Shown piece after piece: positions 16,837 through 52,560 of a DNA stretch of 64,000 nt. Origin of the DNA: Balneola sp. EhC07 (GTDB lineage Bacteria; Bacteroidota; Rhodothermia; Balneolales; Balneolaceae); NCBI RefSeq assembly GCF_001650905.1, contig NZ_LXYG01000002.1, forward strand, positions 124,001 to 188,000. The letters run 5' to 3'. The translations under genes and the position numbers were made by a program. The notes below the pieces were generated by a model. The model ran no database searches. It saw only the letters and a list, made by a program, of their open reading frames with translations, and was not told the DNA's origin. Each line of letters starts with the position of its first letter. Within the stretch, counting starts at the first letter, position 1.

Positions 16837-16857
16837 AACTTATACCTCGATGATTTT

Positions 16858-16877
16858 AAGGGGAATTGCTCCCCCTT
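16858..16877 (-). terminator. GC hairpin between the two giant secreted protein genes
   Basis: On the minus strand AAGGGG(G) AGCAATT CCCCTT forms a short strong stem in the 50-nt gap between the genes. It is followed by AAAAT rather than a U-run, so it may attenuate or stabilise the message instead of ending it fully. Confidence 0.4.
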
Positions 16878-16886
16878 TATCATCAA

Positions 16887-31880: not shown

Positions 31881-32276
31881 TTATGCTGCGGCAAACTTAT
31901 TTATAGCTCTTTTCAAGGTTCTGGAAAGTTCTTCGGGTTTAGCCGGTTTTTGTACCAGTTGCTCTATACTTAAAGAATTTGCTCTGTCAATCACACTTTT
32001 CTCCGTAGTGGAAGAAATGTATTGAAACGGAACCTTTATATTCGGATACAGATCTTCAATTTTCTCATGAAGCGTAAACCCGTCCATGCCGGGCATTTGT
32101 ATATCTGACAGAATTATATTCGGAATTATAAACTCCAGCATTTCCAATGCTTTATATCCGTCAGAAAATAAAAGAACTAAAAATCCTCTCTGTTCCAACA
32201 TTCTCCCTGTAAGTACTCGGTAAGCATCATTGTCTTCAACAATAAATACTATTGGTTTTGTTATTTCTCTACGCAT
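31881..32276 (-). CDS. Single-domain response regulator (CheY-like receiver)
   Basis: Stand-alone receiver domain of 131 aa: acidic pair in IVFIVEDNDAY, phospho-acceptor Asp in IILSDIQMPGMDG, Thr/Ser in YISSTTE and Lys in LVQKPAKPEEL. There is no output domain, so it must act by protein contact. The ATG at 32276 is preferred: a TTG at 32297 would overlap the preceding giant gene, and a GAGG sequence lies about 10 nt upstream of the ATG. It starts 10 nt after the stop of the 3260-aa surface protein gene, so it is likely the last gene of that surface operon or the bridge to recO. No cognate kinase is adjacent. Confidence 0.9.
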   Translation of the reverse strand: MRREITKPIVFIVEDNDAYRVLTGRMLEQRGFLVLLFSDGYKALEMLEFIIPNIILSDIQMPGMDGFTLHEKIEDLYPNIKVPFQYISSTTEKSVIDRANSLSIEQLVQKPAKPEELSRTLKRAINKFAAA

Positions 32277-32286
32277 TTTATTAGCC

Positions 32287-35200
32287 TCAATTATCAATTT
32301 TAACAGTAAATGTTACTACTCCGGTACCCCCGGGTTGCAGTGTTCCTGTAAATGTCCATTTTATACCACCTGCAGTACCTACAGATGGGGTTGTAATCGT
32401 ACAATCGGTTAGATTGTTTGGCAAACTCCCACAAGCTGCCGTATTAAAAGTTGTGTAATTCGGAGTGTTATCAATGATCTCAAGAGAACTTATTGGTTCA
32501 TCTCCATTATTTTGATAACTAACCGTATAAGTTAAAGTTGCTCCAGGTAATGCCTGATTTTGATCTACAGTTTTTATCAGAACCAAACCGGCTTCGTTGT
32601 TATTTACCGTAACAAGATCACTTCTTGATAAATTTTGTTCGATCACCGGTGAAGTATTTGAGTAACTCATCACTGCAGAAATTGTAGTATTACTTGTTGA
32701 CCCGTTATTAAGCCCTTGTGGAACACTGACTTTCAGCAACAAACACAATGTTTGCTGAGCTGTAACAACTACAGGAGTACTCCCATCCAGAATTGTTTCA
32801 CCACTTTCTACAGAACCATTACAATTCAAATCATTGTAAAGTATTACAGGCCATGTAACATTGTTCGGGTTATTCACTGAATTTGTTGTAAATACTATAC
32901 TTCCGGCAGTTTTAGCTTCAAAAGTGTGCTGAAAGAATGCAATTGCTCCCGGAAGCACATTCTGACTACCATTTGTATTAAAAGTACTCACTTGTACATC
33001 CGCAAAGTCAACACCCGTATACGAAGACCCAACTGTATTCGTAAAAGTAGTTACGTCAGTATTTTTGTCATAGGAGCCGGAGGTTGTACCTGAAGAACCG
33101 TCTATAGTCAGATAAGAAGCTTTATTTACTTCTTGAATTTTAACAGTTCCACCACTTGGTATGGTCGATTTTGGAATAAACAGTTCATAAGTACCGTTGG
33201 CATTTGCTGATGTTTGCTCGATCAATACATCAGAACTGGTTAATGCTTTAACAATGGTTCCGTTGATACCAATTTCAGTTCCATTTTTAATTCCATCATT
33301 AGCTGTTCCTCCACCAATTCCGTTATCAGTAAAAACTGTACCTGTAACTTTTGAACCTTCATAATCACCAAAATTTTGCTGTGCCGGAAGGTTGTTTACA
33401 ATTACTGTTCTTAAATTTGGCGTAGTTGAAATATGATCGGTCGGATCTGTTTCTGCAGGAGTACACACATCCGGGGTTGGAACACTTTGTCCAAAGGATT
33501 CAATTAAGTCATACTCGCCATTAAGAACATTACTGAATTGGTAGAATCCATTCGCATCAGTAAGAACACTCTTACAGTTATTCAGGTTTTTGTTAAAGAG
33601 AACAATAGTGACGTTTTCAATACCACTTTCTCCGCCTTCTCTCAGCGCGTTGTGATTATCATCTTTATATACATATCCGTTTACAGTAACTCCGGTAGCT
33701 ACAACACGTTGATTGGTTGAAAATTCAGAAGTGTTATTTCCGGAATCAAAAGTAAGAGCAGTTATTCTGTCATTAATAACAATGCTTGTTGAAGAAACAG
33801 TAAAAGTTTCACTGAACGTACCGTTTGCATTTGTATTGATGGTACCGATAAGAGTTTGTCCCTCTCCGTGAGGACGAATTAACGAACCACCTTCTTCAAT
33901 TAATCCCTGCTGATTACCGTCGTCTGCAGCTTTATAAATTTCAATGGTATATACACCTGTTAACCTCGTTGAGTTCTTACCAATATAACCTTCAACTGTA
34001 AGTTGATTTCCATCTACAGTTGCTAAAGTAAATACAGGATAATCAAGCCCTTTATTTGGTTCTGTAGTAGCATTTTCTATTACGCCATCGTTAGGGGATA
34101 CACCGTCAGCTTGTCCGTTAACGGAAGTAACGATATCGATTGCAAGTCCTTTGTTATTGGAGAAGCTGTTTTTAGTTATAAATACACCTTGTTGAGACTG
34201 AGCGTCCGGGAAACTTAACCGAACCCCAGCTCCTTTATATGGACTTGAAGAGTAATCTGTTCCATTTCCTGTAATAATGTTTTTCTCAACAAGCGTATTT
34301 GATACTCTATTCAAAACATTAATACCAGTTGTTCTTTGATCTCGAATAGTGTTATTTCTGATTGTGTTTCCTGAAGTCAGTGTTCCTGCGATATTACCCA
34401 GTTCTATACCTGCTCCACCGTAAACATCACTTCCGCTTGTTTTTCCATTTTCGTGGAATAAGTTCTGAGTAATTGACCATGTACCAATTCCTTCTAATCC
34501 ATCAGCATTATTTACAGAAGAACCAGCTCTGTACACCTCATTTTTAGTGAACTGAATAGTGGCATTTCCATTTTCTGATCTCACTCCGCTGTCTTTTGTA
34601 TAAGCGATATAGTTTCTTTGGATCAACGGTGTTTGAGATCCTGAACCTGTGATAAGAATACCAAGATCAGATTGGTTAAGTCCTGTTGGATCAGTTCCGT
34701 CTGCTCTGGTACCAATCATATTATTTTCAATAGTTCCACCCACTATATTTACGAGTGAAACAGTTCTAGCATTATTGAAAAGAGCGAAATGTCTTAGTAC
34801 AACAGCACCTGAACTGTTGACAGAAAGTGCGTTATTCCCTACGTCATTAAGATCTAATTCCAGTTCTTTTCTCTCAAAAGTGCTTAATGAAATTCCATCA
34901 ATACCAACTGAACCACCAGTGCCAACCGTACCGGAGTTAGGATTCAGAATAGAAAGCGGAGAGTTCAAATTAAAAGAACGTCCGTCAAGTGTGGTAAGAG
35001 GATCTGTTATTGCAGGAAGTTCTGAGCTCAATGTGATTTTCCACCAGTTTCCACCACTTCCGGTTTCATTAGTAGCTACTGACGGAACGAATCTCATCGT
35101 GTTAGCGCCCGAGATCTCGTTCGCATTAGTAATGAACTGTCTCAACGAACCTTGAACACTACGATTTGAAGAAAGATCGTCATCACCATCTCTGATATCT

Positions 35201-38200
35201 GTAACCACATTAAAACTGAACCCAAAGTTAAGCCCGGAAACATTATTACTTGCCATCGTGAACTTTGCAACATGTTCAGCGTTTGCAAGATCAGCATTAG
35301 ATGGAGCCGTTCCTACAGGCAGATTATCAGATTGATTTCCTCTTCTACCTCCAAAGCAATTCCCTGCTGACCCTTTTGTTCCAATTCCACCCGCTCCATC
35401 TGAACAAAGTGCTCCTGTCGGGGCATAAACTTGTTCGGCCCAGCTTGCACCGTTTGTCAGATTTCCTGTTTTAGAATTTACAACTACCCAATAGTCAGCA
35501 TCTTCTCCGATCTGAAATGTAAATGCACCAGAAATAGTAGTTGTATCGGATCTTAAGAATACATCATCACTACCGTCAGCCAGGCCATCACCACCATCTT
35601 TAAATAAATGAACGATCACATCTTTTACTGCTTGTTGATCACCGGAAGCATCACCAAAGTTTGTGTCTCCGTCGGTTATACCGTTTCCGGTTTTGTCTTT
35701 GAAAACAATACCTTCAACTTTATTACTGATGTATATAGCTACTTTAGATGTATCGTTTGCCTGATTTGGGTCAAACTGATTCAGTCCCAACAGGTATGCT
35801 TTATTTACCAAAGAATCAGCTGTTACACCTGAGTTTACGCTTGCTTCCACAGTCATTGTTACTGAACTGCCGTTGTTAAGAGTACCGATAGACCAAATCT
35901 TATTAATCTGGTTGTAAGTTCCCTGACTTGGACTTGCTTGCACTAAAGCCAATCCGGAAGGTAATGTTTCATTAACATCTACTTCGGTAGCTCTTTCAGG
36001 TCCATTGTTTGTAACTGTAATAGTGAAATTTATGGATTCGTTTTCCAGCGGATTTGCATTATCCACTGTCTTAGTTACGGAAATATCAGCATCACGAGTA
36101 GTTACAACTTCAGGGTCAAAATCCTGATTTCTACACTGGACGAAATCAATATCCACTAAACGGTCAATAGTATAACCATTTGTTAAATTGGATCCGGTTC
36201 TGAATTCAAATACAGAAGTATAATTATACTTTATGTACGCCATATGATCGAAATCTAATGACCCGTTTCCATCTGTTGCAGGAGTAGAAGTAAAGAACTG
36301 GAAAGCACCTGAAGTAGTTTCAGTTAGATTATTCCCTCCCTGAACAGAATTAGACTGATTCTGAGTAAATCCTAAGAAATCACGAATAGTTTGAGTGTTA
36401 TCATTCTGATTTACAAAACCATCAATGTCCAATGCAGTCATTGCAAAATTCTTTTTTACAGGATTCGTGGTTCCTGTAGCAACAAATTTAACTTCCCAGT
36501 CAATATAACCTCCACTTTGAGTAGCCTGGAATAGTGGACTGAAATTTGCTGCACTATTACCTGAAGTATTATTATCAATATTACTCAGAGTAGCATTACT
36601 GATTGCTTTTATTTTCACCAAGGCATCAAGTCCCGACGCGATATTATTAAATCTGTAAACCGCGTTTACCTGCCCGCCAATACCTTGCTCTAATGTATTA
36701 TTACTGAAATTAAATAAAGGTGGCTCACTACAGCTTAAACCTGAGGACGGATCAAATACTATAATATCAACTTCTGCACTATTGTTACTTTGATTACCAT
36801 CACCACCCGTAAAATTTGAGAAGCTGGCAGTATTTTTGATCGTATTTCCTTCCTGCCCTGTATTAACTGTGGCTTTTAAGGTAAGTGTTGCAGATTGTAA
36901 TCCGGAAAGCGAGCCTATATCCCAAATTCCTGTTCCGTTTGTATAACTACCTAATGTTGTAGTACCCGAAACGAAGGTTAATCCTGCCGGAAGTTGGTCT
37001 GTAACCTCAACATTGCCTACTGCATTTCCTTTTTCATTTTTTGCAGTTATGGTATACGATACAGTATCACCAACTGAAGGAGAAACATTATCCACAGCTT
37101 TTGTAACAGAAACATCAATTATGTTTTCTGAAACCGGATCATTAAAATTGTTAATCTCACAAGGATCAAAACTTAATCTGTATAAACGATTTGAAGTTGA
37201 TCCCCCACCCTGTATACCTGCTCTGAATCTGAATTTCGGTTCATTAGTGTACGCACTGTATACCGTATGGTCTGAAAAATCAGGGTCTGTGGAAGATACT
37301 CCATTGAAATTATCAGGCGTGTAGGTTGCGTAAATTCCTGCTGAACCAATAACAAGGTCAGTTGTACTTTCGATGGTGTAGGAACTCAGATTTTGAAAAC
37401 CGACGTATTCTTTCAGACTTCCGCCTGTACCATCCACATCACTGGAGGTTGCCGCAAAAGACAAGTACTTCTCAACATTTGTAACTGAATCATAAAATGA
37501 AATCTCAAAATCCATGAAAGCATCATTGCCATCAGCACTTTGAATTCGCGGAGAAAATGCTTCGTTAAAAGCCGTTGTACCGCTAGTTTCATCAATATCA
37601 GTTATAGTCGCGTTATTATCAGTTATAATTTCGATACGTGCATATACTCCAGGAAGTACCGAATCAAACTTATAAACCGCTCCAAGTTGTAAAGCCGTAC
37701 CACTTTCCAGAGTGTAATTTGTAAATCGAAGTAACGGACGATCATTACAAGATGTAGGAGCATTTGCTTCGTCTACTGTAATATTAACCGTGGATGAGTT
37801 ATTTGAATTATTTGGGTCATTCTGATCAAGCGTCTGAACTGCAGCAGTGTTAGCAATAGTGTTTCCTTCTGTATTTTGATCTACTCTAACATTAATAACT
37901 AAAGACGCGCTGGCTCCATTTATAAAAGTACCTATATCCCAAATTCCTGTCGAATTATTATATGTTCCCACGCTCGGATTAGCACTTTGAAAAACTACTC
38001 CGGATGGAAGCTGATCAATGATCTTCAGATTTGAAGCATCTCTTGGCCCCTGATTGGTAACAGAAATTGTATAGTTAATAAAATCACCTTCAATAGGAAC
38101 CGAATTATCTACAATTTTGAGTACCTGAATATCTGCAGCTTCAGCAACCACTGTAATTCCGGCTGAAGCAGAGTTATTATTTAACTCGGGATCGTTCTCA

Positions 38201-41200
38201 TTTAACTGAGTAATTTCAGCATTATTAGTGATCGTATTTCCTTCTGTTCCGCTATTAACAGTAGCAACAATAGTTAATGTAACTGTAGTAGTATCACCTT
38301 CAGCTAAACTGCCAATGTTCCAAATATTTGTAGAAGTATTATACGTTCCCTGGCTTGTTGTATGCGACTGATATGTAATTCCATTTGGCAAATCATCTGT
38401 AACCTGAATATTTGTTGCTTCAAACTCTCCAGGGTTTGTAACGGATACAGTATAAGTGATTGTCTCTCCCTGAACCGGAGTGGAATTATCAACCACTTTA
38501 TCAATTTCCAGATCTGGAGTAGCAGGTTCCTGAATACTAACTCCGTAATCTTCAACTTCTCCACCAATTGCAATTCCATATGGAGAAGCTACACTACTTG
38601 TTTGCGACGCAATTCTGAATCGTGCAAAAGTATCTCCGGTAATCAATCCTGAAAGACCACCCCAGCTTAGTGTTGCCACCCCGCTTAAACATTCTGCAAA
38701 AGCATATTCAGAATTATCAAAAGTACCATTTTGATTTATATCGAGCCAAGCACCCACTTTCGCTCCGGAAGTACAAACCAGATTCACATCATATTCTGTG
38801 TAATTAGTTCTAAGAACCGGAAGTATTGTAATTGCATCTTCATCGTCTCCCGAACCAATTCCTGAAGATTCAGAATCATCTCCGTTTGCTTGAGAACCTG
38901 CAGCTCCGTTTCCATCTGCATCAACTGTACCACCAAAGTAAACAGGGTTTGTTCCGGTATTGCTCAATACATGAAAAGCCGGATCGTTACCTCTTGAATT
39001 GTAAGAAGTTCTGTAGGAATTTGGTGCATCCCCGTAATCAGCAACCAAAGCTAATCCTACGTGAATATTATCGGTTTGAGCTACGATTTTTCTGATCTCA
39101 ATTCTTTCCACACCGGGAGTATTTACTCTGAACCAAATTGCATTTGAAGAAGACGTACAGGAAGGATTACCAGAAACTACAGGTTGAAATTCAATCGTTG
39201 TGTTGGCATTGGTATAATTCAGATTAACGGAGTTTGTACAAACACCGCCATCCACACCCTGGCCGGTTACCCAACCATTAACAACGATTTTAGTATTGGT
39301 TCCATCAAAAGCTTCTAATGTATAAGAAGTATTTCCTGAGTTTGGTTTTAATTTATTTAAGCTCAGTATAAATGCGTCAGAAGGAATTCCATCAGCTATG
39401 TTTATATCAAAAGAGGTCGCATTACCGGTGTTACCACTTGCATTAACCTGAGGGCCATTGAATTGATCTCCTGAAAATGCACCAGTAGACCATTCCTGAA
39501 GTGCGTTTGGAGAAAATGTGGTTTGAGTACCACCTTGAGCATCAACTGTAGCAATTTCAACATTTCCTACTTTTGCTGAAATCGTAGTAGAATTATTAGT
39601 TCCGTCGAAACATGCCCAACTAGCATCATTTCCGTTAATGATCGGACATGGATCGGGTCCAAATGGAATATTGGTAGAAGTGTAATTAATAGCATTTGTG
39701 CCTGTAAACGCTGCCGCTTCATTAGTGGCTATATCTCGAATTCTATTTGTTCCGGGAGTGTAATCAAAGGTTACATTATCACCTTGTTGAATAGCATTGG
39801 TTAATTCAATACTAACTCTAACATTTGTTATAGAAATACTTGAGATGCTTACTTGTGAACCATTCACTCTAACTTCAAAATCAGTTGTTGCGGGTACTGA
39901 ACTAGCATCCAGAATTTCATCGTAATCGAGTAAAAGAGAGCTTCCACCTACAAGACTTGTTTCATAAACAGGAGCAACATTGTCTGAAATAGCTGAAGCT
40001 TCAGCAGAGTTATTACTTTCATTTAAATTGCCATCCTCGGACGCTACTACATAATAGTATGTATTGCCGTTAAGAGAAGTGTTATCTGTGAAGGTGTAAC
40101 CAGAACTTTCGTTATCCACAACAACTCCAACTTGTGAGTATGGACCGCCGGGAGAAGTGGACCTTCTGATCCAATATCTGGCAACTTCCCCTCCTGTTCC
40201 TACATCCAGGAAAGAAACTTCAATAGCCCCATTGGCAATAGCAGTAGCACTTACACCCAATGGTGGTGTTGGAGTATATCCAGTAGTTTGATTCGTAACT
40301 GACTGATCATTTAACGAGGATGCTAAATTCCCTACATTATCCCGAATTTTATTAATACCCGGAGTGTAATCCAGTTCAACATTGTCAGTAGGTTGAATCA
40401 CATTGGTTAAAGTAAGTATTACCTGATTTCCTGAAATCGTTAAGCTGCTTACAGGATTATTATTTGTGACATTTACTGTAACCGAATAATCAGAATTAGC
40501 AGGTGCAGAAGAAATATCAATTGGTTCATCATAATAAAGAGTCAGTGTTTCTCCATTTACAATAACAGAATCCAGTTGAGGCGAAACACCATCAGCAGTT
40601 GCAAATACTTCGGCAGAATTTCCACTTTCATTAGAGGATCCGTCAATTGCACTAACTACGTAATAGTAGGTGGTTCCACTAACCGGAGTATTATCTGTAA
40701 ATGCATAGCTTATGCTTTCATTATCATTTACAGTGCCAACCTGAGAATAAGGACCACCCGAACTTGTAGCTCTTTTTACGGAATATGTGGTCACGCCACT
40801 TCCGTTTGATTCATCTACATCATCAAAGTTAATTCTAATAGCACCACCTGATATCGCACTTGCAGATACATTCTGTGGAATTCCCGGTGGAGTATTATCC
40901 GGAGTATTATTTGTTACAGCTTCATTGGAAAGGTTTGCTGATTGTGTTCCCTGCTGATCTTGAATAGGATTTGTACCGGCTGTATAATCTATAGTTACAT
41001 TATCACTCAAGTCTACACCCGGCGACACAGTTATAGTTACTATATCATTGTTAATAGATACATTTGTTACCGTGATAGATGAACCATTAACTCTTACATC
41101 AAAATCACCTGTTGCAGGAGTGGACGCTGCGTCCAGAGTTTCATTATAGTCCAGTGTTAAAGTAGTACCACTTATAGAACTAGATTCTAACCCAGGAGGA

Positions 41201-42069: not shown

Positions 42070-45000
42070 TTATTTACCTCCGCCTTTACCATCTTTGATA
42101 AGGTCTAATTCTAAAAGGTTGATTGAATCTGCATTCAGATATTCAATGTTCACTTGATTTTCTGATGCTCTTGATTCATTACTGATTTCAATTCTGTTTG
42201 CATCAATGCCCCATTCAACTAAGTAGTCCTTCATAGCTTTCAATCTTGAAGAAGAAGCTCTGCTACCATCTCCTGTTATTGCGATTCTAACTGATACTGA
42301 ATTTTTCAGGTAAGAACCAATTCTGGACAGAATTGCCTGCACTTCATTACTCAATTGAGTACTACTTCCTGCAAATGTTACCATGTTTGGTACAGTATAG
42401 CTTTGAGAGAAGTCTCTTATTAATAACAAGTCTTCTCTTTGTCTTAAAATATTCATCAGATTATCCATCATTCTTAATGCAAGACTGTTATTTATAAGAT
42501 CGATGTCATCTGTTTGGTCATAGATTCTTAAGAATGAATCATCAGAGTAATCAAATTCAACTTCAGATCCGGAAATTTGAGATACGATCATTCTATCCTG
42601 AGCAATGCCTTCTCCATACAGAATAGCTTTAACTCTGTTTCCAATTTCAAGTGACGGAGCATTTATCTGTACTGTTAAATTCTGGTATTCTTTCATCGGC
42701 AATGAAACACGTCGTACGAGGTACTCATGAATTCTGTTAAGAGATGAACCTGCACCCAGATTTAAACCACTCGGAACAGCATTGTGCTCTGCTATAAATA
42801 CATAATCCCAACTTCTGATACCTCTGATTCTTGGGTTAACCTGAAGATCTTCAACCTGAGAAATAAATCTGATGTTTCTGTTTTCCACACTTAGGTCAAG
42901 TTCTACACGTCTGTTTCTAGCCATATCCACTCGATCTTTTTCAGGAGCTGCATTTTTGCTGAAGCTCAATCCTTCGAACTGTAATTTATCTGCATCCACA
43001 CCAGCTGCAACCATATAAGCACGTACTGCTTTAGCTCTTCTTTCCGACAGTGCTAAGTTGTAAGATTGAGAACTCTTGCTATCCGTGTGACCGGTTACTC
43101 TGATGAAGTAATCCTCATCGCGTTCGATTAAGAATTTAGCAACCTTATCCAACATTTGAGCAGCAGGCTGATTAATGTAAGTGCTGTTGTTGTTAAAGTG
43201 GATATGCTTTGGAAGTACAGTTAGAGTTTCAAGTTCTCCGAAAGCGATGCTTCTTGCAGCAATTGGGTTTACAGTCAAATCATGTGGAATAGCTTCCGCA
43301 GTAAATGGCAAGATCTCAATTTCCGGAGCTTCACATATTTCCACACAAGTCAGGTAATTATTTGGGTCGATTATTGGAGTTTTCTTAACTCTGTCCGGGA
43401 TCAGGTTATCGAATAGACGCTCATCAAATTTGTAGCTGAATCCTAAATAAGCACCTTTTTGCGTATAGTTGTTTGCAACGAGGTCCTGATCATCATATCC
43501 GAAGAAATTAAAACCTGCAGCTAAACGAAGGTTTGTAGCAACCAAGAAGCCGGCTTCAACACCCAGTCCATAATCTTTAGTTGTAAAATCACTGTTAGCC
43601 AGCAAACTTGCATTTATGCCGGCATCCCATTTTTCGTCTATATCATAAATAGCTCTACCTGAAATTAATTCAAGGAAGCTTGAAGTCCTTAATTGGCTGT
43701 CGGACTCTAAAGAATACTTCGCCGCTACTCTACCTGATAAAGTCAGGTCTGTAGTTGGATGATAGTTTCCATGAGAAGAAAGTACATGTGCAGTTCTGAA
43801 GAAATCCTCATCAACATTCTTGTCAATTTCATGTTTGAATTCATAACGGAAAAGAGCATCAAATTTATTTGTTGATGTACTTCGGTATGCTGCTCCAACT
43901 TGTAAACGTTCTTGCAATTTGCTTAAACCGGATACCCCATCTCTGGTATTCAATGAAATGATATTCTTAGTTAAAAGTGTCCAGTCAGTATTTAATTTCA
44001 ATCCATAACCAAGACTATTCAGGTACAGGTTATCAGTAGATGTAAATCTCGCTTCAGCTCTTGCGGTAGCTTTCCAATTTGTGCTGCCGGTGTAATCTAC
44101 TGCAGAAGTAATTGCTGTTCCGTCGTTCACAGCCTGACCTTCCAGAGTAAATACTCTTTCAAAACCAAAGTTCAATCCAAGACCTTTTGCTAACTGGAAT
44201 TGATTTCTCAATCCAATGGCAGCCTGACCGCTTCTTCCGTTAAAAGAATCATTAACTCTGTATTCACTGTACACTTTACCGTTTTTCATGTAACTGGCAT
44301 CAATACCAACTACCGTGTTATTTCTTTGCTGTGAACCGCTAAGTGTATTAATACCTGCCGCACTTGAAATGAACTCATGTCGGGCGTACAGCTTTGCAAG
44401 CTTTCTGAGTCTATAATCTGCTCCAATTGCAATTAATCGCTTGTCTGCTTCATTCAGATCTTGTTCAACTTCACCGAAAGCTGAGGCTCCTGAAAGGAAT
44501 GGAAGATCAGCTTTAACTTTTCCTCTTATGTTCGTGTTATAAGATGTTGAATCGAGAGCTGATTTATAATTTTCAGAATATCTCAGCCCCATTTCAGCGT
44601 TGATATTGTTTCCAAAAGTTTTTTCAGCTGAGATCAATCCACCAAACGTTCGATCACTGGTTGTATCGTTTCTTGTAAATAGAAGCTCGTTCTTAAGTGA
44701 AGTTGAACTGTTTAGTTTATAACGCGTTCTTGCTCTCGCTTCTGTTCTACCCTGTCCTAAACCGGAACCTTCATTGCTGAAGTTCTCATTTGACTTACCT
44801 AACTGAGCAAATACATCCAGTTTGGAACCTTTGTGATTTACCTGAACTCGTGCTGCGCTACCACTGCCCTTATTATCAGTATTGGTGTTAGCAAATTCAC
44901 CAACTACTTTTGTTGCTTTACCCATTTCCGCAGAGAAATTACCGGAAAGTAATCTGAAATTATTTTCAGGATTGTTATCCTGAACTGCATTTGCACCTAT

Positions 45001-48000
45001 CTTGATTCCTTCTCTTAGTTCCGTTTCGGCTTTTACACCACCTATCAAGTATCTGTCCTGGTTGTTTGTAACTTCATAAGTAGCTCTTATAAATACCGGA
45101 TTGAAATCAATATCCACACTTGAAACAGGATTTTTAAAAGTGATCACTCCTGAAAATGGGTCAATAACATAGTCACGGAAACGAGTAAGTCTCTCAACGC
45201 TTAAAACAACATCAGGCTGTTCTCTGTCATAAGTTACTATCTCTATGATCTCACTATTATCTACAATGTCTCTGTCAGGAAGATCATATCTTGAAATCCC
45301 TTGTCCCTGGAATTCTCTTACTTTTCTGCTTGAGAATGCATTTACACCAAATGCCTGTGCTTTGATCTTTCCTTGTTCGAAACTTGTTTTTAAACCGGTT
45401 TGAGCTCTGCTATATGTTCCCAGTTGTACATTCTGATCTCTATCCTGAGTAATAAAATCACCATACAGAGCATAGGTTTTACCACGATCAACACGCACAT
45501 ATAGTCTACTTGAAGACTGGGCATCGAACCCCTTAATAGAAGACTCTCCATATACCGGATAAAATTCGTCTGGTCTGATATCTCTAAATAATCTGTCTTC
45601 TTTTGACTTTTCAGAGTCAAAACCTGCCGTCAAAAGTGATCTTCCGCTTATTTTACCTTTAATAAAGAAAGCAAGTCTTGCATCTCCTGTAAAGTTTTGG
45701 AAATCATATGAAAGTTGCTTCAACTCTCTTTCAAAACCATCAGCTTCTTTTTCGGAGCTTATGTTTACCTGTTGGTTGAATCTAAGTGTACCCTCAATTA
45801 TACCTGCAGCAATTAATGGTCTTAAGTCAGGTAAAAATTCAACTTTTAATTCACCTTTTATGATACCAAGATTAGCACGAACTATAGAAGTTTTTGGTTG
45901 AGAGGTTGAAGTAAGTTCAAATTCAGCAAAACCACCCTCAATAAATGTTTGAGTTCCGGGCTCATTAGTATTATTGTCTTTAACTTTCCAGTTTCCGAAT
46001 TCCGTATCCAGTGTTACTAATACACGATCTCCTACGTTGATATCGTTTTCATCCAATATCTCTACTCTTATCAAGGCCGAAGATACTCCATCTGCAGAAA
46101 CATAATTTCTTGGAGCGGTTACTTTAAGTCGGCTTGCTTTACCCGGTGCAAATACTTGTATTTCTTCTCTGCCTCTGATGTTACCAAACGGATCAACCTC
46201 TTCTAATACCAACACGTTCTTACCAGCTTCAAAATCGATACTCACATATTCCCAACCTTGTAAATTATTTGATGGTGAAATAGAAGATTGACCAACTTTC
46301 TCATCAGCAATTAAATTTCCATTTAATGTCAGTAAGAACTTGGCTCCTGATTTACCTTTAGCCCAAATCGTATAATTGTTAACTGTAAGCGTATCATTAT
46401 TTGAAAGATTCAAAAATCCTAAACCATCTTCAGCTTTCATTAAGGCTTCTTCAAGTAATACACCTTGTGATGGAGCTATTTCTTCTTCTTTAGCTGCGTT
46501 TGTTATTTTTCCGTCAGGGCTAGTTGCAGCTTTTTTGGATACTGAAACCTTTCCGTCTACAGTACCACTTGCATTTTCAAACTGACCTCTGCCTGATTGA
46601 GCGTTACTTTCATTTAATGTGAAGCTTCTTTTTAAAGAACCGGTCAGTGCATCTTTAGATGTTTGAGAAAGCAACTCTCTTCTGGAATTAATTTCCTCAT
46701 TTACCCCCGGAGTACATTCACAAATTGCAAAGTCAGCTCTATGAAGTTGACCTTTTTTAACATCCACAAATCTACTGGAAGGATCATTTGCATGACGGTT
46801 ATCCAAAACAGAAAGCTTACTTCCTTCCGGCAATGAATAGTTATCAACTTTAAGAACATGCTTATTAGGGCTTACTGCATAGAATGTATATTTCCCTTCA
46901 CTATCGGTAACAACATAAGTACCATTCTCCATATATAATCGCACACCAGGCACTCCAACTTCACCGGCGTCCTGCATATCATTTTCGTTACAGTCCTGGA
47001 AAACTTTACCTATTACATAAGCATTGTCATTAAACAGACCACCACGAACCTCAACTTTTACTTTAGCTTCATTACTGCTTTTAACTACTACTTCGTCACT
47101 CTTGGCTATTGCAACGTTAATTCCTTTCCCTTTTTCTGATCCAGGACCTACAAATACTCTGTATGTTAATTCTTTGGTTGTTCCTGATTCTATGTCTCCT
47201 ACATCAAATTTTAAACTCGGGCCTTTACCACCTTCGGGATCCTGAAGTTTTACCCCATCCAGTTTTGTAGATCCCAATTGATATTCGAAACCGAATGGAA
47301 GCAGATCATCAATAAACAGGTTTCTAACTGTATTAATCGCTTCACTCTTTATAGTAATTGTGTAATTGATATAATCACCAATTTCTGCAGTTGGACGATC
47401 TACTGTTTTATTGGTGAACAGAACACCTCTAGCCTGTGGATCTAAAGGAATATCAAAATCTGTACCTTGAGGAACATTGCTGAAAACCCAATCCTTGCCA
47501 TAAGATGCTAAGGTATCGACTTTACGACCTGCCGGCAGAAGTCCCAATGGTACTTCTGATGTAAAGGTATAACCCTCCGGAGTTTCTACTTCAACTTTAT
47601 AAGTTCCGGTTTCAAGATATCGGAAAGCAAATCTACCGTCAGGACCGGTCACATATTCGCTTGGAGCAGGAGTTGTTCCGTCTGTTTCAAAAACCTTAGC
47701 TCTTCCACCGGCGTCACCGCCATTGTTAGCTCCTGTAACATCTATTACTGTTACTTTTGCATTTCTGATCGGCTGATTAGTTTCGCTGTCGAAAACAATA
47801 CCATAAGGATCTACAATAACCGTAGTTTCAATTCTAGCTCCTTCACCACCACCTCCGGTGTTATTGATCCCGCTACAATTCAATCTTGCTTGGATTACAT
47901 CATCTTCAACCGTTTCAAGAATATTGTTACCAATTATCACATCAAAATCAGCGGCATTTCGGGTTGGTACACCCCCTGCAATTCTGAATAAACTGGTATT

Positions 48001-49245
48001 GATCCCTGTTTCAATTCCAATGAATTTTTCAGAATCACTGGTTTCAAAAGATTGTAGCGTTATTTCTGTTGTATCAATCCTGGATCTGAACTCATTACAT
48101 GCTGCAGCAGTTGCCTGGAGATTAAGTTTACGACCTATACTTGATGTACCTGTTTTCTTTCCAAAAGTATCATCAGTATAATAATCAATCGTAGCACCGT
48201 TTGAAGGAAGGAATGCAACTACATTATCCGAAGCCGCATCAACAACTATATTTTGTTCCGGATCACTATAGCTTATTTCTGCTCTGTTTTGTACGGTATC
48301 GCTCGCTCCCGGATTGATCTGTACCTGGAAAGTCGTACTAAATTCTTCTCCCGGACCTAGTTCATCAAAAGCAAGACCAATGAAAGAAACTAAAGCCGGA
48401 TCTGAAGGTAATGAGCTGGTAAATTCATATTTACCATTCCCTTCATAACCATAAAGCTCTTGTCCGTTTGTTGTTTCTGTAAATTGAACAAAACTCACAT
48501 TCGAAGGGATAGAGTCAAGCAGTATAATTTTATTCGACGCTATTCCATCAATCGTAATTCCGCTTCTAGGTAATGCTGAAACATCTCCCTTGTTTATTCC
48601 GGCAATTGTATATGTAAAGTTTTCATTCGGTAGTTTTTCCTCACTACCTGACTGAGTTTTATTTAACTCAATTCTAGCTCCTGATAAAACATATACGGAA
48701 TCACGTTTTAACAACTTGACGTCAAACTCTCTTGAAATGGCCTCTACATTAATGATAGAAGTGATCGAATCATCTTCAGCTTCATTAATTGCACCTGAAT
48801 ATCTGAAGTCGAATCGCTCTCCCGGATTTAAAGTTATTGTCTGAAATAAAGTGTCGGTATTCTGAATTTTAGACTTAGTTCCATTCAACCATTCCAGATC
48901 TTCAAGGTCATAATCACCTTGATCCCAATTGTAGATCTTGATATCAAATGTAGAGGCTATATTTCCTCGGTTAATCAGAAAATGATCAAACTCTACCTTT
49001 TCCCCTCTGAACCTTTTATATGAATTATTGAGTTCCAGAGCAAAATCGACTGTTGCATCAACAACAACATTAACTTCATTTGAAAATATTTCAATTGGAT
49101 TAGTTTCGCCAGTTTCGGAATAAGTTGTAGTTGCTTGATTCTTAATTGAAGTTCCGCTGGTTGGCGCGTTTTGTGCACGAACCTCTCCCATCGCTGCTAA
49201 CAGAAGCAGTATCAGAAACGATATGAGAGAGTTAATTTTGTACAC
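42070..49245 (-). CDS. 2391-aa outer-membrane protein: DUF11/Cna_B/Big_1 region, beta-barrel, OmpA domains
   Basis: Order by eye: signal peptide (to about 24), an N-terminal module opening SIKNQATTTYSETG, a Cna_B-like domain (about 477-575, IVDPYGIVFDSETNQPI), a DUF11 domain (about 607-740), an SdrB-like domain (about 742-830), and an invasin-type Big_1 domain (about 1032-1130, YVSADGVSSALIRVEILDEN). A long stretch of alternating amphipathic strands typical of an outer-membrane barrel follows (about 1140-1943). An OmpA peptidoglycan-binding domain (about 2007-2117, VTGHTDSKSSQSYNLALSER) and a weaker OmpA-like copy (about 2285-2372) come last. It ends KDGKGGGK. It sits mid-operon: 82 nt after one DUF11 gene and directly abutting the next. 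Likely an envelope anchor or assembly platform; the role is inference. Confidence 0.85.
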   Translation of the reverse strand: MYKINSLISFLILLLLAAMGEVRAQNAPTSGTSIKNQATTTYSETGETNPIEIFSNEVNVVVDATVDFALELNNSYKRFRGEKVEFDHFLINRGNIASTFDIKIYNWDQGDYDLEDLEWLNGTKSKIQNTDTLFQTITLNPGERFDFRYSGAINEAEDDSITSIINVEAISREFDVKLLKRDSVYVLSGARIELNKTQSGSEEKLPNENFTYTIAGINKGDVSALPRSGITIDGIASNKIILLDSIPSNVSFVQFTETTNGQELYGYEGNGKYEFTSSLPSDPALVSFIGLAFDELGPGEEFSTTFQVQINPGASDTVQNRAEISYSDPEQNIVVDAASDNVVAFLPSNGATIDYYTDDTFGKKTGTSSIGRKLNLQATAAACNEFRSRIDTTEITLQSFETSDSEKFIGIETGINTSLFRIAGGVPTRNAADFDVIIGNNILETVEDDVIQARLNCSGINNTGGGGEGARIETTVIVDPYGIVFDSETNQPIRNAKVTVIDVTGANNGGDAGGRAKVFETDGTTPAPSEYVTGPDGRFAFRYLETGTYKVEVETPEGYTFTSEVPLGLLPAGRKVDTLASYGKDWVFSNVPQGTDFDIPLDPQARGVLFTNKTVDRPTAEIGDYINYTITIKSEAINTVRNLFIDDLLPFGFEYQLGSTKLDGVKLQDPEGGKGPSLKFDVGDIESGTTKELTYRVFVGPGSEKGKGINVAIAKSDEVVVKSSNEAKVKVEVRGGLFNDNAYVIGKVFQDCNENDMQDAGEVGVPGVRLYMENGTYVVTDSEGKYTFYAVSPNKHVLKVDNYSLPEGSKLSVLDNRHANDPSSRFVDVKKGQLHRADFAICECTPGVNEEINSRRELLSQTSKDALTGSLKRSFTLNESNAQSGRGQFENASGTVDGKVSVSKKAATSPDGKITNAAKEEEIAPSQGVLLEEALMKAEDGLGFLNLSNNDTLTVNNYTIWAKGKSGAKFLLTLNGNLIADEKVGQSSISPSNNLQGWEYVSIDFEAGKNVLVLEEVDPFGNIRGREEIQVFAPGKASRLKVTAPRNYVSADGVSSALIRVEILDENDINVGDRVLVTLDTEFGNWKVKDNNTNEPGTQTFIEGGFAEFELTSTSQPKTSIVRANLGIIKGELKVEFLPDLRPLIAAGIIEGTLRFNQQVNISSEKEADGFERELKQLSYDFQNFTGDARLAFFIKGKISGRSLLTAGFDSEKSKEDRLFRDIRPDEFYPVYGESSIKGFDAQSSSRLYVRVDRGKTYALYGDFITQDRDQNVQLGTYSRAQTGLKTSFEQGKIKAQAFGVNAFSSRKVREFQGQGISRYDLPDRDIVDNSEIIEIVTYDREQPDVVLSVERLTRFRDYVIDPFSGVITFKNPVSSVDIDFNPVFIRATYEVTNNQDRYLIGGVKAETELREGIKIGANAVQDNNPENNFRLLSGNFSAEMGKATKVVGEFANTNTDNKGSGSAARVQVNHKGSKLDVFAQLGKSNENFSNEGSGLGQGRTEARARTRYKLNSSTSLKNELLFTRNDTTSDRTFGGLISAEKTFGNNINAEMGLRYSENYKSALDSTSYNTNIRGKVKADLPFLSGASAFGEVEQDLNEADKRLIAIGADYRLRKLAKLYARHEFISSAAGINTLSGSQQRNNTVVGIDASYMKNGKVYSEYRVNDSFNGRSGQAAIGLRNQFQLAKGLGLNFGFERVFTLEGQAVNDGTAITSAVDYTGSTNWKATARAEARFTSTDNLYLNSLGYGLKLNTDWTLLTKNIISLNTRDGVSGLSKLQERLQVGAAYRSTSTNKFDALFRYEFKHEIDKNVDEDFFRTAHVLSSHGNYHPTTDLTLSGRVAAKYSLESDSQLRTSSFLELISGRAIYDIDEKWDAGINASLLANSDFTTKDYGLGVEAGFLVATNLRLAAGFNFFGYDDQDLVANNYTQKGAYLGFSYKFDERLFDNLIPDRVKKTPIIDPNNYLTCVEICEAPEIEILPFTAEAIPHDLTVNPIAARSIAFGELETLTVLPKHIHFNNNSTYINQPAAQMLDKVAKFLIERDEDYFIRVTGHTDSKSSQSYNLALSERRAKAVRAYMVAAGVDADKLQFEGLSFSKNAAPEKDRVDMARNRRVELDLSVENRNIRFISQVEDLQVNPRIRGIRSWDYVFIAEHNAVPSGLNLGAGSSLNRIHEYLVRRVSLPMKEYQNLTVQINAPSLEIGNRVKAILYGEGIAQDRMIVSQISGSEVEFDYSDDSFLRIYDQTDDIDLINNSLALRMMDNLMNILRQREDLLLIRDFSQSYTVPNMVTFAGSSTQLSNEVQAILSRIGSYLKNSVSVRIAITGDGSRASSSRLKAMKDYLVEWGIDANRIEISNESRASENQVNIEYLNADSINLLELDLIKDGKGGGK

Positions 49246-49327
49246 TTTTTATTTTTAAAACTTTTTAAAAGGAGAATGAGGGGTCAACCTCATTCTCATA
49301 ATTCTGGGTTATGAATATTTAGTTACT

Positions 49328-51994
49328 TCAACTGTCTACTTTCACTGCGAAAGTTATTTCTATCTCTTCGGTAGAATCCAATTCATCGATATCTACTTGA
49401 ATAGTACCTGTAGCACCGGCCACAGGCTCAGAAGTGATAGTTACTACCGGAGGAGTTGTTGCTCCTGCTCCTGAAGTAATAGTTGTAGATACTGCTACAA
49501 GCATCTTCGTAAATGATGGAGTATCATCAGTAACTGAAACAGTAGTTACAGGTTGAGAACCATCATTTCGGATAACAAGCTTGTAATAGACTGTATCTCC
49601 CGGAAGTACATTGAATGGGTTCTTTGTAAAAGTACCCGCTGTACCACTCGCATCCGGAGCTTGGAATTTATCTACTACAATTAAACCAGCTTGAACTTCT
49701 GTGATATCTGTATTGCTTTTGGAAGCAAGATTTGACTGAGTATCACTAATTGTAATTGTAGTTGTATTAGTTTCGCCATCATCGAGTCCGGCTAAACCTG
49801 TAACCTTTACTATGAATTTAACTTGATCGTTAAAACCAAGGTTTCCTACTTGCTCAGGTAAATTATAAGTTCCTGATGATGCTGCAGTTGTCAATAGTGA
49901 ATCATTAGCATCAATAGTACCGTTATTATTTGTATCCCAATAAACGTTAGCAGTCCAACCAACTGGTTTCGAATTCGTTAACTCGATCTCCAAGTTAGAA
50001 TTGGTAGTATCGTTTTCCGTTACGTTACTAAGAATAGTAAGCGTATGGAGATAGTTACGAGATCCACCCGGTGCAATTTGGCCTGATCCATTAGCTGTTA
50101 ACTGCATATTTTGAAGAGTATTCACAGTTACCTGGTCATGGATAATATCAACAGCATTTGTAGTAGGTGAAAAAGCACGGAAGTAAACTGCTTGCACACC
50201 TGGTTGATAACCTGCCGGTACAAATACTTCTGCAACAATTAGCTTACTTGCTCCAGATGCCAGATTACCCGTTTGTGAAATTTCACTGTTTCCTGCGTTA
50301 GGATCTTTGAATGTAACCGTCCATCCTGTTGGCACTGATCCAACATTTTGAAGATCTCCTCCTGCAGTAGTATCAGCAGCAAAGTCTAGATCATAAGCAT
50401 CTTGTCCCTGACTAGTGTTCTTAACATAAAGTGTAAAAGAAACCGTAGTACCAGGATTTGTTGTTTGGTTAACAACTGCATTAGTTTCCGGACCATCACC
50501 CTCACCTAAAGCGCCTGCATCTCCTGCCGCAGCATTGTTAGTAAGATCAACAGTAGGAGCTACAATTGTATTTAATCGGTCAGTATGCGTAGCGCTCTCG
50601 TTAGGATCTCCCAAAGAGGTAAGCGTCTTGTCTACAGAGTAAGGACCGGTTCCACTTGCACCTGAAGGTAATTGAACCTGTAAGATTACAACTATTGTAT
50701 CTCCCGGTTGAATATTACCTGTATCTGGGATTCCGTCTACTCCGGTATCCTGATAAGTACTTGTAGGATTGTTGTTAGCATCCGCTTTGTAAAGAAAGAA
50801 CTGTCTCCCACTTGGGTAGTTATCAGTACCTAGGGTAATATTATAAGTATCAGTAGTACTACCTGTGTTTACATAGCGGTTAATGAAATTGATAGTTGTT
50901 CCCTGCTGAGTAGAATCTATCTCAACAATTTGAGCATCTACCAATTCAATATCATAATTCTCATTAATGGTAACAGGCTGACCGGGAATGGTACTTTCAT
51001 TTGGTATATCATCATGAGTTGTGACAACCGTGTTAGTGATAGTTTCACCTTCCTGACCTGTATTAACAGTAACCTTAAAAGAAAGAGTACCGGAAGAACC
51101 GTTAGCTACGTTAGCAACAACAGCAGAAAGTGTATCCTGTAAACCACCGGTTATTCTTTCAAAAGTAATACCTGAAGGGTCCCCACCGGATGCATCTGTA
51201 AGTGCACCACCTCCACTCCAAACTGCAGAGTTTGGTACGTAGGTTAATCCCGAAGGAATTGGATCTTTTAATACAAGATTAGTTGCCGCAGCATTACCAT
51301 TTTCAGAATAGTTAATTGTGTAAGTAAGAGTGTCAGCTACATCTGCTGTAGTTTGGCTAACTCCTTTACTTACTGTAATTACAGCATCTTCATCAACCTG
51401 AGCTTTATCAGTAGCTGTTGCTGATTCGTTAGAATCAAAATCACTTGTTGCTGTAACCGTGATATCTTCGAACTGACCATCCTGAGCAGAAGCAGGTATA
51501 TCAGCTACAATAACAATACCATAAGTATTATCGGCTAATCCTGATCTGTCAATATTGGGAGTTACTGATATCTCAGTAAAGTTATCGGCAATACCATCTT
51601 CATTCGCATCGGGATATATCCTGATATTCGTGAAGTTAAATGCTCCATTATTAGCATCAACAGCTGTAACGGCAAAAAAATCAGATCCATTACCCGTGTT
51701 GGTAATAATGTGGCTGAATGTTACCTGACCACCGACACTAACCTGTTTGGTTACTCCGGCAGTGATTGTAACACCTGCTACCTGTTGTACCGTAGTAACA
51801 ACAGTGTTGGACGTAACGGACTGACTGTTATTCCCGTTATCGATGTACGTAGCAGTTGCCTGGTTACCAATGGAAGAAGACGCAGGTGGTATCTGAGCGA
51901 ATACATCCGTAGATGTACCCAATACCACAGCGAAAACCATAAGCAACCCAACAAGAGCTTGTACCCTTTGTCGTAGTTTATGTGTTGTTTTCAT
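49328..51994 (-). CDS. DUF11-repeat secreted protein (about 888 aa) with shared terminal module
   Basis: Secreted protein built of DUF11-like beta domains. The signal peptide is KLRQRVQALVGLLMVFAVVLG... ending in VFAQ. An N-terminal module opens SSIGNQATATYIDNG and is homologous to the start of the barrel protein. DUF11 domains recur, for example VSKGVSQTTADVADTLTYTI and the strand ending GTLSFKVTVNTGQEGETI. The last about 240 residues match the end of the 3260-aa protein and finish EITFAVKVDS. There is no YPNPFNPS tail. The ATG at 51994 is chosen because it begins the signal peptide. An alternative ATG at 52084 would add 30 residues and overlap the upstream gene by 4 nt (ATGA), so translational coupling to that start remains possible. 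Confidence 0.82.
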   Translation of the reverse strand: MKTTHKLRQRVQALVGLLMVFAVVLGTSTDVFAQIPPASSSIGNQATATYIDNGNNSQSVTSNTVVTTVQQVAGVTITAGVTKQVSVGGQVTFSHIITNTGNGSDFFAVTAVDANNGAFNFTNIRIYPDANEDGIADNFTEISVTPNIDRSGLADNTYGIVIVADIPASAQDGQFEDITVTATSDFDSNESATATDKAQVDEDAVITVSKGVSQTTADVADTLTYTINYSENGNAAATNLVLKDPIPSGLTYVPNSAVWSGGGALTDASGGDPSGITFERITGGLQDTLSAVVANVANGSSGTLSFKVTVNTGQEGETITNTVVTTHDDIPNESTIPGQPVTINENYDIELVDAQIVEIDSTQQGTTINFINRYVNTGSTTDTYNITLGTDNYPSGRQFFLYKADANNNPTSTYQDTGVDGIPDTGNIQPGDTIVVILQVQLPSGASGTGPYSVDKTLTSLGDPNESATHTDRLNTIVAPTVDLTNNAAAGDAGALGEGDGPETNAVVNQTTNPGTTVSFTLYVKNTSQGQDAYDLDFAADTTAGGDLQNVGSVPTGWTVTFKDPNAGNSEISQTGNLASGASKLIVAEVFVPAGYQPGVQAVYFRAFSPTTNAVDIIHDQVTVNTLQNMQLTANGSGQIAPGGSRNYLHTLTILSNVTENDTTNSNLEIELTNSKPVGWTANVYWDTNNNGTIDANDSLLTTAASSGTYNLPEQVGNLGFNDQVKFIVKVTGLAGLDDGETNTTTITISDTQSNLASKSNTDITEVQAGLIVVDKFQAPDASGTAGTFTKNPFNVLPGDTVYYKLVIRNDGSQPVTTVSVTDDTPSFTKMLVAVSTTITSGAGATTPPVVTITSEPVAGATGTIQVDIDELDSTEEIEITFAVKVDS

Positions 51995-52080
51995 TGTTTG
52001 AATCCTATTATTATGGTTCAATTGTTTGTTTTTTTGAACACTGTTTAGATTTGAATTTTGAAATCCCGTTTTAGTCCTGA

Positions 52081-52560
52081 TCATGATCGGACCTCAACTC
52101 TTGCGGTAAGAGTTATGCTTTCTCCAGCCGCAAGAGCAGGAACTAGCCATTGTAAGCGTCGATATTCCTGAGCAGGAATGACGCGGTTTACCTGTGATCC
52201 ATCCGGTTGTGTAACCTGACGAGTCAATGGTAGTTGTCTGAAGTCATTAGCAGTGGTGCTAACGCTTGCCCCACTCAGCTCCGGAGATGCAGAGCTTTCG
52301 AGATAGAACATCTCGGGTGGTATTGGCAAAACAGGCATAAGTTGAGTAATGTCTCCACCTGTTCCATTCTGGTAAGTTAGTCGATATTCAATAATATCTC
52401 CCGGCTTAACTTCGGTTACTTCAGTTGCAACCTCATTACTGTCTGCATCCAATGAGATCTTGTAGGCCTTCAGAACTGAAGACAACTCCCCATTTTGTGC
52501 ATATGTATTTACAGATAAACCCAGAAATAAAACGAATAAAAATAGATACTTATATTTCAT
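52081..52560 (-). CDS. Small secreted single-DUF11-like protein (159 aa)
   Basis: Secreted protein with a signal peptide (KYLFLFVLFLGLSVNTYAQ) and one DUF11-like beta domain: an EVKPGDIIEYRLTYQNGTGG block, then PVLPIPPEMFYLE, and final strand AAGESITLTARVEVRS. It corresponds to the terminal module found at the ends of the two larger DUF11 proteins downstream, but stands alone. It is the first gene of the surface operon, and its stop overlaps an upstream ATG of the next gene by 4 nt. Upstream lies a 306-bp divergent promoter gap. It may be a minor subunit or cap of a surface structure; this is inference. Confidence 0.8.
   Translation of the reverse strand: MKYKYLFLFVLFLGLSVNTYAQNGELSSVLKAYKISLDADSNEVATEVTEVKPGDIIEYRLTYQNGTGGDITQLMPVLPIPPEMFYLESSASPELSGASVSTTANDFRQLPLTRQVTQPDGSQVNRVIPAQEYRRLQWLVPALAAGESITLTARVEVRS

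Follow-up and report, generated by a model that had tools for sequence, protein, structure and literature searches.

Split DUF11 domains in a four-gene surface cluster of Balneola suggest a fibre joined by donor-hairpin complementation

The stretch of Balneola sp. EhC07 DNA analysed here (64,000 nucleotides, hereafter the window) carries a cluster of four genes at positions 32287-52560 that encode, in reading order, the proteins we call small, mid, barrel and giant. We consider it likely that this cluster specifies a surface fibre whose subunits join through split DUF11 (CLIPPER) domains by donor-hairpin complementation, in the order giant-mid(n)-barrel; docking and covalency are what we infer from the sequences. 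The reading draws on truncated DUF11 domains at chain C-termini, on strands resembling the missing ones at the N-termini of mid and barrel, and on the division of an isopeptide-type residue triad between the two. The truncated terminal domain and the N-terminal strands go beyond what a preliminary description of this DNA had recorded.

Alignment of internal with terminal DUF11 domains revealed an early stop in the terminal ones, just short of the last two strands ('..gtitNtAtvty....sNsatvtvtv'); by sequence comparison, the last DUF11 of giant, mid and small ends after the strand '..TFTVKID'. For a wider survey, one genome per species was scanned with a barrel-protein profile and the best 80 of 276 related stretches were kept as loci, whose proteins were sorted with profiles from 14 Balneolota sets, mids being recognised by their N-terminal part and giants by a near-end match to the module. 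The 80 loci contain 77 barrels, 71 mids, 61 small proteins and 60 giants. Against a reference DUF11 profile of 134 positions, built from 295 complete internal domains, the terminal domain of mids ends at position 94-98, 0-4 amino acids before the stop, in 70 of 71 cases (the sole exception being the broken open reading frame (ORF) of locus L111), and that of closed giants at 93-97 in 56 of 58, the other two stopping at 81 and 89. Taken together, 126 of the 129 closed mid and giant chains have a terminal DUF11 that stops at 93-98. In 59 of 61 small proteins the domain ends at 93-106, no more than 40 amino acids from the C-terminus. Complete DUF11 domains were found inside chains and truncated ones at C-termini: among domains of at least 20 bits, all 123 terminal ones end by position 99, as do only 6 of the 397 internal ones, and generic DUF11 decay was rejected on these figures. 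Restriction of the module to C-termini was likewise rejected as the defining trait; the two-domain unit also occurs inside mid, and the unique feature is the cut point.

Two strands resembling the missing ones, with the pattern 'G.I.NqAtatY...SN.V.t.V', stand at the mature N-terminus of mid and barrel. A profile of the last two strands, applied to the first 130 amino acids with a threshold of 5 bits, detected them in 53 of 66 mids and 64 of 72 barrels, in 5 of 52 giants and in none of 61 small proteins. The same profile matched 0 of 528 other ORFs in the loci and 8 of 414 shuffles, and chance likeness of the N-termini was rejected on these controls. Conversely, an acceptor match in barrels was weak and seen in 1 of 75. 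The 38-residue hairpin holds 11 of the 47 near-invariant columns of mid (P 1.7e-6). An AlphaFold2 (AF2) monomer of mid has a mean predicted local distance difference test score (pLDDT) of 90.7, with about 91 over the N-terminal 40 residues, which is consistent with a structured hairpin. Sequence sets comprised the window's protein plus 55 of 63 sequences for one mid set (three near-duplicates and five second-cluster Acinetobacter paralogues were dropped), 59 of 69 for the barrel segment and 19 of 51 for the giant end.

Joining each acceptor in silico to a donor of the same locus raised the profile score by a median of 10.8-14.1 bits for giants and mids and 8.7-11.6 bits for small proteins, versus -1.1 to +1.1 bits in joining controls, a test that is not independent, in that a profile derived from the same model had been used to select the donors. 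The Pfam model PF01345 is independent of the profiles built in this analysis. With it, and without a control peptide, the window's giant acceptor rose from 34.5 bits over positions 2-84 of 114 to 39.2 bits over 2-113 when the mid donor was appended, and the mid acceptor from 25.6 to 29.3 bits. Complete internal DUF11 domains have a median of 89.5 bits, which marks the split domains as diverged.

DUF11 has been renamed CLIPPER, and the available text on crystal structure 9IFR, from an Acinetobacter adhesin, describes an intramolecular Lys715-Asn806 isopeptide bond with Asp748 as presumed catalyst, a bond that increases thermal and protease stability (PMC12617251). When a profile of eight internal domains was run against the PDB, 9IFR was the sole match to E 0.1, at 9.5e-10; phmmer with a single Balneola DUF11 gave no PDB match to E 0.01. 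A modelled internal DUF11 of mid superposes on 9IFR with Z 12.7 and a root-mean-square deviation (rmsd) of 2.8 Å over 120 residues, and Foldseek with the whole of mid returned generic matches to multiple immunoglobulin-like (Ig-like) domains only. Lys715 and Asn806 of 9IFR align with the Lys and Asn columns of the cluster family; the numbering offset that fits both puts the aligned Asp at 749, printed as 748 in the text available to us (PMC12617251).

Among complete internal domains, 284 of 295 have the full triad. In the cluster it is divided over the chain ends, with Lys and Asp in acceptor tails and Asn in donor heads. Lys was counted on full alignments, since local alignment often stopped short of the acceptor Lys. 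Of 56 mids, 55 have all three residues of the split triad and the last has its Lys displaced by two residues; after clustering at 50% identity, all 19 clusters retain the divided triad. The donor Asn is found in 56 of 56 mids and in 65 of 67 barrel matches (72 proteins examined), and giant acceptors have Lys in 58 of 58 and Asp in 58 of 58. Small proteins are the exception: Leu, Val or Ile occupies the Asp column in 60 of 61 and a gap in one (Asp 0 of 61), and there is no conserved Lys. Without the catalytic Asp and a conserved Lys, small has an acceptor-type fold that should not form the bond. The residues expected of a natural split isopeptide pair are thus present in the main family, and not in all distant relatives.

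In the proposed fibre, a donor hairpin at the N-terminus of one subunit would complete the C-terminal acceptor of the next. The distribution of donor and acceptor ends gives the chain order: giant, with an acceptor only, would form the distal tip; mid, with both, the repeat, presumably in n copies per fibre; and barrel, with a donor only, the base. The last mid acceptor would take the barrel donor, the OmpA domains would tie the base to peptidoglycan, and the large beta-barrel would presumably serve as the outer-membrane passage for the fibre; on which side of the membrane the joints form is also something we infer. Where Lys, Asp and Asn are all kept, as in the window, a spontaneous intermolecular Lys-Asn isopeptide bond should seal the joint, as a natural analogue of SpyTag/SpyCatcher, and judging from the residues such a weld is probably made here. 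Small is a candidate chaperone and probably shields donor hairpins before assembly or caps an end. Whether the arrangement extends across several Gram-negative phyla, as a natural split self-ligating isopeptide domain that yields a covalent, sortase-free head-to-tail fibre with a dead acceptor as chaperone or cap, seems to us an evenly balanced proposition.

AF2 modelling of barrel residues 1128-1962 with 60 sequences gave a mean pLDDT of 77.8. Foldseek with this model placed the outer-membrane barrels LptD, SprA, SlpA and FimD in the lead, with query-normalised template modelling (TM) scores of at most 0.28 among the 50 matches listed, and VIA-align gave FimD as best match (Z 15.8, rmsd 8.4 Å, 360 residues). 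The model thus depicts an unusually large outer-membrane barrel with no close solved relative among the matches listed. The sortase-associated PdsO OmpA protein model (TIGR03789) scored 52.9 bits against a curated cut-off of 152.2, over the OmpA region alone and below that cut-off.

The loci come from Balneolota, Acinetobacter and other Moraxellaceae, Polaromonas and other Burkholderiales, Gallionella, Geobacteraceae/Desulfuromonadales, Nitrospirae, Verrucomicrobia and others. Small, mid and barrel are adjacent and in the same order in 55 of the 57 loci that hold all three, the exceptions being L111, with its broken mid, and L126, where another ORF intervenes; this order spans Balneolota, Pseudomonadota, Desulfuromonadales and Nitrospirae. 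Giant follows barrel in 38 of 77 barrel loci, contig ends interrupting many loci, and several Acinetobacter loci have giants before the small gene. Among the four verrucomicrobial loci, one has mid-barrel-giant and none has a recognised small protein. Of 58 related genomes, 14 have a full-length barrel, and precisely these 14 also have a small protein (E 1e-30 or better), at a distance of about 3 kb; in each of them (the window's and 13 others) small, mid and giant surround the barrel. Besides their main cluster, the Acinetobacter loci L097, L100, L103, L104, L113, L124 and L146 carry second mid-like sets, mostly with giants and some with diverged donors (ISNMA..), which are perhaps a second fibre or alternative tips.

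Distant relatives separate the cut point from the triad. Barrel is present in 18 genomes of a 247-genome sample of the window's phylum and module-like matches in 25, all 18 among them; the cut point was inspected in the barrel genomes as 12 Balneolota orthologue sets, G220 and five distant genomes. A truncated terminal DUF11 was found in none of the seven barrel-less genomes with module matches (one protein or stretch each), where the chain ends 6-690 amino acids past the last DUF11 and, by eye, five have a T9SS-like tail (type IX secretion system). The class of G137 has a barrel in 7 of 197 genomes, as a separate protein of about 1030-1060 amino acids, with donor, DUF11, SdrD_B and OmpA in another gene (Pfam, G271). 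Stretches from these seven genomes yielded 21 proteins whose final DUF11 is cut by position 99 and no more than 4 amino acids from the stop, including giants of 2500, 2789 and 3081 amino acids; the 631-residue mid of G271 (aligned to 111, 10 amino acids from the end) and the 577-residue donor protein of G137 fall outside this limit. Both G271 and G233 have a donor Asn; Lys and Asp are kept in the mid and a long acceptor of G271 and in two acceptors from a single G233 locus, and both are missing from a further G233 acceptor. The mids of G274, G159 and G378 have lost the acceptor Lys and have Ser or Thr in place of the donor Asn; one acceptor of G274 keeps Asp. The co-loss is suggestive, not clean. 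G369 was too incomplete for a reading of the triad. False matches of the distant-class donor pattern (for example L194, the giant of L180, L200 and one ORF of L182) were discarded by eye, and the anchor donors of G274 (Asn) and G159 (no Asn), which the pattern missed, were read by eye. Because distant relatives keep the cut point while the triad is often incomplete, strand complementation looks primary, with the weld apparently added and kept in the main family.

These comparisons also bear on the preliminary description, which had the terminal module recognised by, or polymerising on, the barrel protein. This is partly supported: the part recognised would be the N-terminal hairpin, of mid as well as barrel, and not the barrel domain; the G137 class has the hairpin/OmpA part and the barrel in separate genes. 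Its expectation that modules sit at C-termini and not at random positions is borne out by the pooled count of truncated domains, in giants partly by classing. The tie to barrel genomes holds as far as the phylum sample was inspected, and G021 has a diverged barrel without the module.

Several observations weigh against the fibre or its covalency. Single donor matches are weak, at 5-21 bits, and donor peptides alone have no Pfam match. Shuffled donors extended the alignment past position 120 in 20/52, 32/44, 20/63, 46/66, 18/53 and 35/52 cases per set (other-ORF controls, 2/546), so that only the score gain, and not the reach, separates real donors from shuffles. The C-terminal position of the giant module is partly definitional, because the giant class was itself set by a module match within 25 amino acids of the C-terminus; the cut point is not. 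Six long proteins in the 80 loci fall outside the classes, three with the module 39-44 amino acids from the end and two running off the contig. In G021, a diverged barrel stands beside a 3232-residue DUF11 protein that has neither donor nor acceptor, which is possibly a one-chain relative of the system. This protein has 13 DUF11 domains, and the coordinates are L068:4244-13942 and 13939-18258 (reverse complement of the locus).

A fibre of the same build in which split domains join the subunits non-covalently, the triad residues being leftovers with no inter-chain isopeptide bond, is rather unlikely but draws support from the distant class. Its acceptors often lack Lys and/or Asp and still keep the C-terminal cut point, so the joint apparently functions there without the triad and covalency is not general; moreover, G137 and the G274 anchor retain the donor Asn although the acceptors lack Lys, and the G274 anchor weakens the co-loss of the triad. 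Opposing this, the main family keeps the split triad in nearly every mid, in every cluster and in all giant acceptors, and the mids of G274, G159 and G378 have Ser or Thr for Asn just where the acceptor Lys is gone. Another possibility is that the barrel domain, as a translocon, reads the C-terminal module as a sorting signal, in the manner of a T9SS tail and without strand exchange. Module matches accompany the barrel in all 18 genomes of the phylum sample that have it, and the barrel is translocon-sized, with about 40 strands and a distant likeness to FimD, SlpA and SprA, yet the idea leaves the strands at the mid and barrel N-termini and the division of the triad unexplained. We regard it as improbable as a full account, while noting that sorting and strand exchange can both hold.

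Closed monomers, with the hairpin of mid completing its own C-terminal domain and the barrel and giant ends as unrelated leftovers, would suit the presence of donor and acceptor in one mid chain, and self-docking could produce the high AF2 confidence of the hairpin. However, giants have the acceptor and rarely a donor-like start, barrels have the donor and at most a weak acceptor, and both ends are conserved; the unpaired ends of giant and barrel need a partner in another chain, which makes self-closure slightly less credible still than pure sorting. That these are ordinary DUF11 stalks, with degraded terminal repeats and a chance N-terminal likeness, would accord with the low single-donor scores and with the common occurrence of DUF11 proteins as adhesin stalks, as stated in the available text of PMC12617251. 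Such stalks would hardly show one uniform cut point in 126 of 129 chains versus 6 of 397 internal domains, donor strands in most mids and barrels versus 0 of 528 other ORFs, or a 38-residue hairpin so rich in near-invariant columns (P 1.7e-6), and we give this explanation almost no credence. The donor-hairpin fibre, probably sealed in the main family, remains our preferred reading.

In the window, the four minus-strand genes lie where the preliminary description had placed them (Table 1), and each product has a signal-peptide-like start, judged by eye. The shared terminal DUF11-like module that it proposed stands for giant and mid, whose C-termini align over 264 amino acids (26% identity, E 2e-11), in keeping with a claimed homology of about 240 residues. 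The giant end also matches the internal stretch 154-340 of mid (E 1e-5) and giant's own DUF11 at 1298-1397 (E 5e-6), and the two-domain unit is therefore not unique to chain ends. Small joins them as a family and not one-to-one: its best match to another cluster protein, an internal stretch of giant, is not significant (E 0.04) and it scores 13.2-13.9 bits against PF01345, under the cut-off of 24.6, while every one of the 61 family members reaches at least 3 bits with the local DUF11 profile (median 27.4). Internal domains lift giant, mid and barrel over the Pfam cut-off for DUF11. In barrel, Pfam finds DUF11, SdrD_B, CarboxypepD_reg and two OmpA stretches; the fourth gene was correctly described as DUF11, OmpA and beta-barrel, but the Big_1 domain also named was not found by this search, which gave a weak Invasin_D3 match only. 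Giant residues 1-600 have a mean identity of 8-22% to six relatives, versus 31-66% for residues 781-3260 (60-residue blocks), a contrast that would suit a conserved stalk with a variable tip.

Table 1. Features of the cluster, in positions of the window.
Feature	Position	Strand	Remarks
Small protein gene	52081..52560	minus	159 aa (amino acids); signal-peptide-like start and acceptor-type DUF11 domain, Leu78 in place of the catalytic Asp
Mid protein gene	49328..52084	minus	918-aa ORF, likely start Met31 giving 888 aa; multiple Ig-like domains, donor hairpin N-terminal, acceptor C-terminal
Putative donor hairpin of mid (IPPASSSIGNQATATYIDNGNNSQSVTSNTVVTTVQQV)	51779..51892	minus	Asn10 codon 51863-51865
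Putative acceptor of mid: truncated terminal DUF11	49331..49681	minus	Lys742 codon 49667-49669, Asp789 codon 49526-49528 (mature numbering)
Barrel/anchor protein gene	42070..49245	minus	2391 aa; donor hairpin, Ig-like/DUF11/SdrD_B domains, very large beta-barrel, OmpA domains
Putative donor hairpin of barrel (NAPTSGTSIKNQATTTYSETG...SNEVNVVVDAT)	49051..49170	minus	Asn36 codon 49138-49140; Asn36 invariant in 10
Predicted outer-membrane beta-barrel domain	43360..45864	minus	about 40 strands of at least 8 residues in the AF2 model
OmpA peptidoglycan-binding domain	42910..43197	minus	84.3 bits for the family over the whole protein
Giant protein gene	32287..42069	minus	3260 aa; SWM repeats, GEVED, complete DUF11 repeats and SdrD_B (Pfam); C-terminal acceptor, no donor seen
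Fast-changing N-terminal region of giant	40270..42069	minus	block identity to six relatives
Two-domain C-terminal module of giant	32290..33009	minus	last domain (about 32290-32601) is the truncated acceptor DUF11
Giant acceptor residues	Lys codon 32572-32574; Asp codon 32470-32472	minus	from alignment

The absence of a T9SS tail from the module proteins, and its presence on giants elsewhere in the window, were also confirmed. No tail family (Por_Secre_tail, CHU_C, FlgD_ig) is among the Pfam matches to E 1 of the four proteins, nor is a T9SS tail among their NCBIfam matches to E 1 (for barrel, the best 25 of 39), and a T9SS signal on the cluster proteins was rejected; usher and PapD-type chaperone families are likewise missing from the Pfam matches to E 1. 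Neighbouring giants match Por_Secre_tail at 40.6 bits (11920-16836, minus) and FlgD_ig at 37.3 bits (16887-22202, minus). The window's genome does have a T9SS translocon (SprA_N, 310 bits), yet the cluster proteins are tail-less, and the operon occurs in Acinetobacter and Polaromonas; the suggestion of a display or assembly system apart from T9SS therefore holds up.

Other neighbours deserve mention. The giant at 16887-22202 also has a Dockerin_1 match (29.7 bits). A stand-alone response-regulator receiver gene (Response_reg, 70.4 bits) follows the giant gene at 31881-32297 (minus) and may be co-transcribed with the cluster; a receiver-like protein holds this place in at least 9 of 13 relatives. 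DUF58 and M23 peptidase/Csd3-like genes flank the operon at 52867-53742 (plus) and 53743-55017 (minus), and similar flanking genes hold the same place in many Balneolota relatives.

If correct, our reading would reveal surface fibres of wide occurrence that assemble by a chemistry of their own, concealed in proteins known only by their DUF11 domains. It would account for the missing secretion tails of the giants and give each of the four genes a testable role. The split domains would offer protein engineering natural tag/catcher pairs from another fold class, and relatives that lack the triad yet have the cut point would supply a graded natural set of joints, covalent at one end and non-covalent at the other.

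T9SS cargo resembles the cluster in placing a C-terminal Ig-like module on giant surface proteins of the same organism, but the cluster proteins have no T9SS tail match and Acinetobacter, Polaromonas and like hosts of the operon are not known to have a T9SS. In chaperone-usher pili, an N-terminal donor completes the incomplete Ig-like domain of a neighbour, the tip adhesin is acceptor only, and an outer-membrane barrel is involved. The proposed fibre would work alike in its donor/acceptor logic, its acceptor-only tip and its barrel, as the sequence pattern suggests, and the barrel is distantly like that of FimD. In contrast, the cluster donor has two strands, in a hairpin similar to the last part of the acceptor's fold itself, and the cluster has no usher or PapD-type match, an OmpA anchor and possibly a covalent seal. 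Among the best matches in the open-licence PubMed Central literature, in the portions available, we found no description of a split DUF11 joint or of a small-mid-barrel-giant operon. As far as those portions go, the nearest published work is the CLIPPER survey (PMC12617251), archaeal threads (PMC9715654) and DUF11 grappling hooks (PMC13319060). CLIPPER 9IFR shares its fold family with the internal DUF11 of mid and aligns at the Lys and Asn columns; its triad, however, is described as intramolecular within one domain, whereas the cluster divides it over two polypeptides, and the word 'split' is absent from the main text of that paper (PMC12617251). The grappling-hook proteins are likewise giant filament proteins with DUF11 (GhlA, 49 DUF11 domains in 6,596 residues; GhpA, a 5,898-residue chain spanning the filament), for which the available excerpts describe no split-domain joints (PMC13319060). 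Archaeal threads of Saci_0406 are, according to the available text, head-to-tail donor-strand fibres with apparent covalent inter-subunit bonds, as proposed for the cluster, although there the bond runs from Asn57 to the N-terminal amino group two subunits along, and the subunit itself is of another kind, described as archaea-specific (PMC9715654). Similarly, SpyTag/SpyCatcher and DogTag/DogCatcher weld two proteins through a split isopeptide domain, as we propose here; those pairs are presented in the available text as laboratory-made from Gram-positive domains, whereas the split in the cluster looks natural and suggests a role in assembly (PMC6539128, PMC8878318).

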